Of a stretch of 64,000 nt of DNA, positions 25,522-26,767 are shown piece after piece; position 1 is the first letter of the stretch; every line of letters begins with the position of its first letter. This DNA comes from a virus: IMG/VR virus record IMGVR_UViG_3300021087_001082, positions 1 to 64,000 of that record. One strand, given 5' to 3'. The notes under the pieces were generated by a model. It saw nothing but the letters and a program-made list of their open reading frames with translations. It was not told the DNA's origin and ran no database searches. The translations under genes and the position numbers were made by a program.

Positions 25522-25614
25522 TGGCTCTGGGGGTTGGATTCGAACCAACACGCCCCTCTGCAAAAGGGACAATACGTAAACAACGCATCACGTCTACCGT
25601 TTCGTCACCCCAGA
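25522..25614 (-). tRNA. tRNA-like RNA, long variable arm, anticodon GUU
   Basis: 93 nt with CCA. Acceptor TCTGGGG / CCCCAGA is perfect; U8; D stem ACG / CGT with AAACGGTAGA loop, the layout of tRNA-Leu; anticodon stem ATGCG / CGTAT with one G-U and loop TTGTTTA, giving GUU (Asn) with unusual U37; long variable arm TCCCT-TTTGCAG-AGGGG; T arm GTTGG-TTCGAAT-CCAAC; discriminator G. A class II frame with an Asn anticodon is abnormal. An alternative fold using the variable hairpin as an anticodon arm (UGC) would need a 36-nt D region. Its 5' end overlaps the stop of the zinc-finger gene by 10 nt. Confidence 0.75.
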
Positions 25615-25832
25615 GTCCGTTCTTTTATAAGATGTCCCATTTGATGCTCTGCAAGCGCATCAAGGTCTGTATATGTTTCGTCGCATTCGAAGCAACTAGC
25701 AAATCCATTTTTCTTATAAAAGTTTTCTTCATCTATCATTTCTCTTGCTTGCCTTTGTAGCTCATTTATCACGTCGTGTATTCCATGTCCACCTGGGTAG
25801 ATCGGAAATACTTTATTGCTACTTTTAGGCAT
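25605..25832 (-). CDS. C2H2 zinc-finger protein, 75 aa
   Basis: The C-terminal half contains CFECDETYTDLDALAEHQMGH: Cys47, Cys50, His63 and His67 in the classical C-x2-C-x12-H-x3-H arrangement. The N-terminal half is a helix following a short Gly-Pro-rich start. The ATG overlaps the synthetase-like stop codon (TAATG), so the two are translated together, and the TGA lies in the first bases of the tRNA-like gene. May bind the tRNA-like RNA or DNA; inference only. Confidence 0.7.
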   Translation of the reverse strand: MPKSSNKVFPIYPGGHGIHDVINELQRQAREMIDEENFYKKNGFASCFECDETYTDLDALAEHQMGHLIKERTLG

Positions 25833-26704
25833 TACATAAGTCCTGCTCTTTTCATTCCACTAATAAGTCTCGTCATTCCTATTCCACCTCCAAACCTAGG
25901 TCTGAAGTCATGCCCCAGAAATTCATCAAGTTCTGCTTCTACTCTTTCTTCACCGAATAGATCATACAATAAACTGGCATACCCACCATCTGATATTGTA
26001 TGGAATTGTTTCCTCATTTCATCAACATCGGTTGCACGTTCAGCACTACCGATTGTTTCCATGCCACCAATAATAACATCGCATTTATTAGCAAGGCTGG
26101 CAGTTTTTTTCACATCTTGTTGACCAAGTTTCATGTTCCAGAAAGGACTTGTTGATTCCGGAAAATGGGTTAAAAAGAATACATCTCCATATTCTTGATA
26201 CATTTCTTCTTCATGGCCAGCATCTAATTCTTCACCAGTATATTTTGCTAATACACTTTGATACATGCCACCCGGAAAATCTAAATCTTTATATGGAGCT
26301 CTTCCATGATCACAATGAAATCCTAAATGAATTAATAAATCATTTTCCAGTTTTAATAATTCTTCAAAGTCGCCAGGAGCTTCAAATTCAAACATTGGGA
26401 AGATTAGTTCATGTCTTCCTTCTATTGAATTTTGTTCTTGCCTGTAACTTGTGCTAACACAATAACAACCTGGCAGATCAGGTTTAGTTAACAATTCATA
26501 TTCTAACCACATTTGCCCTGTTTGTGGTAATGGCCATATTTGACCATTATAATTATAGGTAGCAACTGTAGTGGGATCTTCGCATGCGGCGAGGATTGAT
26601 AATCTGCTTTGGGTATGTACTTCTTGAAAATTACGTGAGGAAAAAAAGGAACGGAGTTGTGAGACTACATTAGTGAAATCGGTTGGATCGATTAAACTAG
26701 TTAT
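25832..26704 (-). CDS. class II aminoacyl-tRNA-synthetase-like protein (Asx/Lys type core)
   Basis: 290 residues from an ATA at 26704 placed 4 nt after AGGAGGG; no ATG, GTG or TTG occurs before the ATG at 26512. The 64 residues upstream of that ATG look genuine: LRSFFSSRNFQEVHTQ is motif 1-like. Motif 2 is SYRQEQNSIEGRHELIFP (Arg88, Glu90), with PMFEFE following, and motif 3 is GGGIGMTRL (Arg279). There is no OB-fold anticodon-binding domain, as in EpmA (PoxA) or AsnA-type paralogues. It likely forms an aminoacyl-adenylate; acceptor unknown. First gene of the only minus-strand block. Confidence 0.8.
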   Translation of the reverse strand: MTSLIDPTDFTNVVSQLRSFFSSRNFQEVHTQSRLSILAACEDPTTVATYNYNGQIWPLPQTGQMWLEYELLTKPDLPGCYCVSTSYRQEQNSIEGRHELIFPMFEFEAPGDFEELLKLENDLLIHLGFHCDHGRAPYKDLDFPGGMYQSVLAKYTGEELDAGHEEEMYQEYGDVFFLTHFPESTSPFWNMKLGQQDVKKTASLANKCDVIIGGMETIGSAERATDVDEMRKQFHTISDGGYASLLYDLFGEERVEAELDEFLGHDFRPRFGGGIGMTRLISGMKRAGLM

Positions 26705-26759
26705 AATACCCTCCTTTGATAATTAAAATGTTAACCTCCTTTTATTTCACAAATCTTAA

Positions 26760-26767
26760 TATTTATA
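26760..26767 (-). promoter_or_regulatory. T4-type late promoter motif, minus strand
   Basis: Reads TATAAATA on the minus strand, about 55 bp upstream of the synthetase-like gene. A second AGGAGG (minus strand, around 26733-26738) lies between it and the gene and could translate a tiny leader. Confidence 0.5.

Follow-up and report, generated by a model that had tools for sequence, protein, structure and literature searches.

The window, by which we mean the whole 64,000-nucleotide stretch of viral DNA under analysis, is coded on the plus strand except for three elements on the minus strand, which sit at the positions that an earlier note had given for them. This arrangement raises the question of what an enzyme gene, a short ORF, and a tRNA-like RNA do side by side in a virus. 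The note had proposed a charging system in which the enzyme would charge the RNA with a zinc-finger protein as its RNA partner. The enzyme and the tRNA stand as a conserved unit, but the zinc-finger partner does not. In our reading, which has about an even chance of being right, the enzyme (ENZ) and the tRNA form a module of viral auxiliary metabolism that serves the synthesis of pyrimidines and in which dihydroorotate would be made from asparagine.

The ENZ gene occupies positions 25832..26704 (minus strand, as do all features of the module) and encodes, in 290 codons, an AsnRS-like class II stand-alone catalytic core, as judged from PF00152, phrog_29758, and an AlphaFold2 model. The PF00152 match (2.4e-18) bears out the earlier description of a class II synthetase-like core. 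The family alignment places the start at an ATA codon (26704-26702), and the Shine-Dalgarno sequence GGAGGG (26709..26714) can be read directly ahead of this non-ATG start. The relatives start with ATG or TTG, and the ATA seen here is either an unusual initiation codon or a mistake in the assembly. The reading frame closes with TAA at 25834-25832. An octamer resembling a T4-type late promoter, TATAAATA, was indeed read upstream of ENZ (26760..26767), as had been described, but it is no commoner than chance, with 5 such 8-mers in the window compared with 11.5 expected, and it was therefore set aside as independent evidence.

As reported earlier, a TAATG joint (25834-25830) couples the ENZ frame to a second ORF of 75 aa (25605..25832). 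The "C2H2 protein" of the earlier description does have a finger match (PF00096, 0.0019), but this match is weak and below the cut-off. The ORF was rejected as a constant RNA partner because it is limited to the relatives of the window and is often truncated, lost, or absent altogether; it is simply a lineage-specific spacer. In two viral loci without the tRNA (L077 and L083), a short zinc-ribbon-like ORF was seen downstream of ENZ in the place of the tRNA. The third element, the ENZ-linked tRNA (25522..25614), overlaps the stop of the zinc-finger ORF, is called tRNA-Asn(GTT) by ARAGORN, and ends in an encoded CCA (25524-25522). It was further identified with Rfam, a model termed R1, and covariation, and has a class II body with a long variable arm, U1-A72, G73, and the anticodon GUU (25579..25581), followed by U37 (25578), where the ordinary phage tRNAs of ENZ loci have a purine.

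The AlphaFold2 model of ENZ (pLDDT 88, pTM 0.90) is closest, among solved structures, to AsnRS (top PDB matches 9sh8, 1x54, and 8h53), and AsnRS ranks first in the profile search as well. ENZ resembles AsnRS (class IIb) in the fold of the catalytic core and in motifs 1-3; however, the identity in the structural match is about 20%, and whereas AsnRS carries an N-terminal OB-fold anticodon-binding domain, ENZ (290 aa) starts at the catalytic core. Scores of 15-35 bits were obtained with the curated AsnRS families (TIGR00457 and PRK03932), compared with NCBIfam cut-offs of 343-414. In AsnRS, the asparagine amide is bound by a Glu and an Arg (PMC7387524). E69 and R224 of ENZ align with these residues and were kept in 161/161 sequences, and the arginines with which motifs 2 and 3 bind ATP were retained in 161/161 (R89) and 160/161 (R280). 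The active-site residues are identical in viral and cellular ENZ, and no change marks the viral branch. Although EpmA/GenX, with which ENZ had been compared in the earlier note, is likewise a free-standing class II core, EpmA is of the LysRS type and acts on EF-P, and membership of ENZ in that family (TIGR00462) was rejected because it scored 14-21 bits where the cut-off is 287. ENZ belongs to PHROG 29758, whose function is unknown (phrog_29758, 8e-103), and corresponds to cyanophage T4-GC 194, labeled "tRNA ligase" (PMC3037559).

With the Rfam tRNA model under permissive filters, the window tRNA scored 41.6 bits, compared with a gathering score of 29; the fast Rfam scan of the 64 kb missed it. 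With model R1, it scored 91.9 bits, the best match in the 76.8-kb record, and the ENZ-linked tRNA was also the best R1 match in each tRNA-bearing viral record tested. Among 44 distinct tRNA sequences, 18 of 20 pairs had changed on both sides, 99% of the cells were paired, compensatory cells numbered 257 compared with about 81 in shuffles, and the covariation score was 0.739 compared with 0.199 for shuffles. The fold of the ENZ-linked tRNA is genuine, far beyond chance. In the same 44 sequences, U1-A72, G73, G34, and U35 were present without exception and U36 in 43, with one GUC. GUU, G73, and U1-A72 were found in 60/60 sequences of a second set, and an anticodon-blind finder returned 90 further sequences (GUU 88, GUC 1, and one ordinary tRNA-Leu). 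GUU or GUC, G73, and U1-A72 are the features on record as specifying Asn identity and amidation by GatCAB (PMC9976931). Two independent pointers, the pocket of ENZ and the identity elements of its RNA, thus agree in indicating asparagine.

The ENZ-linked tRNA shares GUU, G73, and U1-A72 with elongator tRNA-Asn, but the short variable region (class I) of the latter is absent in most copies; the variable stem is long in most and short in L014, L015, L033, L038, L047, and L054. It also often lacks U33 or a purine at position 37, which standard decoding requires. U33 was found in 30/40 and R37 in 11/40 of the ENZ-linked tRNAs, whereas the ordinary phage tRNAs of the same loci had 42/42 for each, a comparison that leaves aside one special copy folded by ARAGORN in the wrong register. 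Position 37 is usually U, and the window's own copy has U33 together with U37. With phage-encoded tRNAs, the ENZ-linked tRNA shares the fold and detection by ARAGORN, and in the P-SSM2, P-SSM5, and P-SSM7 records the annotation is tRNA-Asn; it differs from them in being paired one-to-one with an enzyme gene and in joining a Leu-like body to an Asn acceptor. tRNA-Leu, which the body resembles, is also the commonest cellular match to R1. The earlier view that codon supply is an unlikely role for this RNA is strengthened by the loss of U33 in about a quarter of copies, by the usual U at position 37, and by P-SSM2, whose 252-kb genome has a single tRNA, the ENZ-linked copy. An ordinary tRNA-Asn does exist elsewhere in the window, as confirmed by ARAGORN. 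The weak decoding features suggest that the tRNA is kept off ribosomes.

R1 was also run against 21 cellular genomes in search of an equivalent of the special tRNA in cells, and this idea was rejected, as mainly tRNA-Leu was found. The one exception, a GUC tRNA-like RNA of a Chitinophagales genome (G005), was set aside because it is spread across the order regardless of ENZ. This RNA of 118 nt (L169; L187:8760-8877; pattern matches L190-L205) has U1-A72, G73, CCA, GUC in the anticodon loop, and U37, and ARAGORN is blind to it. Similar RNAs occur in G071, G081, G085, G094, G078, G196, and other genomes, with and without ENZ.

To follow the pair across viruses, four IMG/VR scans were performed with ENZ queries, each confirming at least about 600 viral stretches in overlapping sets. 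Among the matches listed, a tRNA finder was positive for 71 of the first 85 loci and additionally for L016, L043, L051, L052, and L061, and in the second set the tRNA was present in 74/74 uncut loci. Two sets seeded with ENZ from tRNA-less loci still yielded the tRNA in 73/77 and 52/72 of the loci listed; several of the misses in the latter set are visible false negatives, and the true tRNA-less loci there number up to 20/72. The tRNA lies immediately downstream of ENZ in nearly all sampled marine viral loci, and this co-occurrence establishes the enzyme and the tRNA as a conserved unit. Nevertheless, the tRNA does not adjoin ENZ in some viral lineages (L074, L077, and L083; 4/77 and up to 20/72 in the last two sets), indicating that it is not essential to ENZ.

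In GenBank, ENZ was found in the cyanophages P-SSM7, P-SSM2, and P-SSM5 and in two uncultured huge phages (735 and 484 kb). In the three P-SSM phages, a GUU tRNA lies a few bases past the annotated ENZ end or overlaps the extended frame of ENZ. In the huge phages, no such tRNA adjoins ENZ, and R1 finds nothing at the score level of the special tRNA; their ENZ (L004, 735 kb; L005, 484 kb) falls loosely with the cellular sequences, not the viral ones. In the tree, every tRNA-bearing row falls within one viral clade of 61 rows (SH-aLRT 97), and nearly all cellular rows lie outside it. The open-access literature yielded no such enzyme-tRNA pair beyond the "tRNA ligase" label of T4-GC 194 and no pyrimidine route of the kind proposed here.

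A single scan of GTDB returned 133 ENZ relatives, many of them on MAG contigs, from Patescibacteria, Bacteroidota, Pasteurella, Chlamydia, Dependentiae, Alphaproteobacteria, and DPANN archaea. The cellular homologues are 50-60% identical and have no adjacent tRNA; on GTDB contigs, the tRNA is limited to those that group with viruses. PyrF or UMP synthase lies within 5 kb of cellular ENZ in 22 loci and PyrD in about 18, and pyrE also adjoins ENZ in some. The gene order is pyrD, ENZ, pyrF, and PRTase in Pasteurella atlantica and UMP synthase, pyrD, and ENZ in Aureispira. ENZ was rejected as the AsnRS of these cells, as a separate full AsnRS was present in 16 of the 21 genomes tested.

The same genomes are short of the usual first pyrimidine genes. 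Over the cut-offs, 49 ENZ genomes contained PyrB in 3, CarB in 5, PyrC (TIGR00857) in 2, and PyrD in 32 cases, some of the PyrB and CarB genomes being possibly mixed MAGs, whereas PyrB, CarB, and PyrD were each found in 14/14 control genomes. Within one order, ENZ occurred in 8 and PyrB, over the cut-off, in 167 of 199 genomes, and none of the 8 ENZ genomes had a PyrB match (0/8; hypergeometric p = 1.4e-8, uncorrected for kinship). A Patescibacteria genome in a single contig of 831 kb encodes ENZ, PyrD, PyrE, and a PyrF-like ORF; tblastn with E. coli queries found no CarB, PyrB, or PyrC in it, and there was no TIGR00857 match. PyrC was not found in several ENZ genomes, Bacteroidota with ENZ keep TIGR00857 relatives of 200-262 bits, and in many ENZ-bearing Patescibacteria no PyrD was found. 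In the order to which Aureispira belongs, some 16 genomes have neither PyrB nor ENZ, reflecting incomplete assemblies or another solution; genomes without both include G060, G061, G078, G104, G145, G151, G162, and G174. In the 831-kb contig (G007 C1), 40 tRNA genes were called by ARAGORN, none of them tRNA-Asn, and the gene order in locus L098 (1-10828) is PyrE, PRK06886 amidohydrolase, ArgH, and ENZ. ArgH and the amidohydrolase were not retained as pathway members, as the loci are too few.

Pyrimidine genes (pyrF, pyrE-like, or pyrD-like) also occur in the flanks of a minority of viral ENZ loci; in the window itself, none was found beside ENZ. One tRNA-bearing viral locus (L021) encodes a PyrF over the NCBIfam cut-off, and another (L082) has the order PyrD-like gene, ENZ, tRNA, and PRTase. 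The viral PRTase, itself a weak family match, is homologous to the PRTase of the Pasteurella operon. A scan with the viral PyrF gave 8 viral loci, 7 of which had ENZ and the tRNA, and a scan with the PRTase gave both in 7 of 15 further loci. PyrF and PRTase are nearly absent from GenBank phages.

Since cellular ENZ lies among pyr genes in cells without the usual first steps, the enzyme-tRNA pair probably makes pyrimidine precursors from asparagine rather than protein. Unrelated to any of the carAB-pyrB-pyrC enzymes and found where they are missing, ENZ apparently fills the same product slot and feeds PyrD, PyrE, and PyrF, which remain. A pyrimidine role for ENZ is, on genomic grounds, well supported. 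From here, we infer the exact reaction of ENZ and the carrier role of the tRNA. Viral ENZ would descend from a cellular enzyme that replaces carbamoyl-phosphate synthetase and aspartate carbamoyltransferase, and in some genomes at least perhaps dihydroorotase too, with dihydroorotate passing to PyrD. The proposed chemistry rests on structure and on general knowledge of aminoacyl-adenylates. ENZ would bind asparagine as AsnRS does, and ATP would activate the alpha-carboxylate. Reaction of the alpha-amine of Asn-AMP with CO2 or bicarbonate may then give an N-carboxyanhydride-like intermediate, whose C2 would be attacked by the side-chain amide nitrogen, closing the six-membered ring of dihydroorotate. 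The net reaction would be Asn + HCO3- + ATP -> dihydroorotate + AMP + PPi, in which N3 and C4 of dihydroorotate would come from the side-chain amide of asparagine, N1 from its alpha-amine, and C2 from the bicarbonate carbon.

Because ENZ has no anticodon-binding domain and the anticodon is conserved, another reader of the tRNA is indicated, namely host AsnRS or AspRS with GatCAB; the conserved anticodon fits charging by a host enzyme better than charging by ENZ. The viral clade would thus have gained a dedicated tRNA, loaded with asparagine by host AsnRS or by a non-discriminating AspRS and GatCAB, and this tRNA probably brings asparagine to ENZ where the host is short of the free amino acid. 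This carrier role where free asparagine is scarce is the least certain step. The dispensability of the tRNA in some viral lineages is as expected if it is needed only under such scarcity. The elements read in indirect Asn-tRNA synthesis by non-discriminating AspRS and GatCAB, GUU or GUC, G73, and U1-A72, are kept in the ENZ-linked RNA (PMC9976931), but unlike the tRNA-Asn of that route it has a long variable arm and a non-decoding loop, and its charging is putative. Yeast tRNA-Asn is protected from aspartylation by its t6A37, and loss of A37 would therefore not hinder the AspRS/GatCAB route.

The nearest reading to the earlier idea is that ENZ charges the tRNA with asparagine for translation, as a phage AsnRS/tRNA-Asn pair acting, for example, against host tRNA-cleaving defenses. 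Such a pair would account for the AsnRS-type motifs and amide-binding residues, for an RNA with Asn identity and a canonical elbow, and for the tight linkage of the two. It is nonetheless unlikely, given that ENZ lacks a domain to bind the anticodon, although no part of the RNA is better conserved, that U33 and R37 are often lost, that cellular ENZ sits in pyr operons without an adjacent tRNA and alongside a true AsnRS, and that the viral branch shows no active-site change. Sense recoding, with the tRNA inserting another residue at AAY codons and ENZ as its synthetase, would be permitted by GUU on a class II body together with an orthogonal enzyme, a matter of anatomy only. The Asn identity throughout the acceptor (44/44), the ordinary tRNA-Asn in the same window, and the poor decoding loop make it scarcely credible.

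Whether the tRNA delivers the substrate is a separate matter, as ENZ might convert free asparagine to dihydroorotate while the tRNA serves as a regulator, a decoy, or a source of asparagine through simple deacylation. Several viral lineages (L074, L077, L083, and others) keep ENZ and lose the tRNA, and no tRNA lies beside cellular ENZ, as this would predict; near-invariant linkage over very different genomes and strict Asn identity would, however, be odd for a dispensable regulator, and we give this possibility a low probability. ENZ could alternatively function as an asparagine synthetase, as does AS-AR, an archaeal relative of AsnRS (PDB 3p8t; PRK06462), or catalyze some other adenylation of aspartate. 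AS-AR is likewise an AsnRS-derived core without an anticodon-binding domain, serves metabolism rather than translation, as proposed for ENZ, and is weakly matched by it (3p8t, 7e-4; PRK06462 models). Membership was rejected, as ENZ scored 14-34 bits against cut-offs of 309-389; moreover, ENZ has the AsnRS-type E at position 69, its context is pyrimidine rather than asparagine, and a synthetase would leave the loss of carB and pyrB and the pyr neighbors unexplained, so that this alternative appears very improbable.

We therefore return to dihydroorotate synthesis with the tRNA as carrier. In its full form, this amounts to an undescribed route by which an AsnRS-derived enzyme converts asparagine and bicarbonate to dihydroorotate in a range of bacteria and perhaps in archaea, and to which marine viruses have added a dedicated, translation-incompetent tRNA delivering Asn-tRNA; we put its likelihood somewhat below even. 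The usual teaching is that pyrimidines are made de novo by a single, near-universal route of six steps. If the proposal is true, an AsnRS-derived stand-in for its first steps, spread over Patescibacteria, Bacteroidota, and other groups, would close a gap that many genomes show without explanation. The viral form would tie the charging of a tRNA directly to the supply of nucleotides in infected cells, and its tRNA would be one of only a few viral tRNAs known to be used outside the ribosome. The ENZ family concerned is common in the ocean and has been annotated only as "tRNA ligase" or as of unknown function. Beside the module, the plus strand of the window encodes a Na/Pi-cotransporter-like protein (PF02690; 25004-25498), and in 21 of the viral loci its relatives are found no more than 4 kb away from ENZ.
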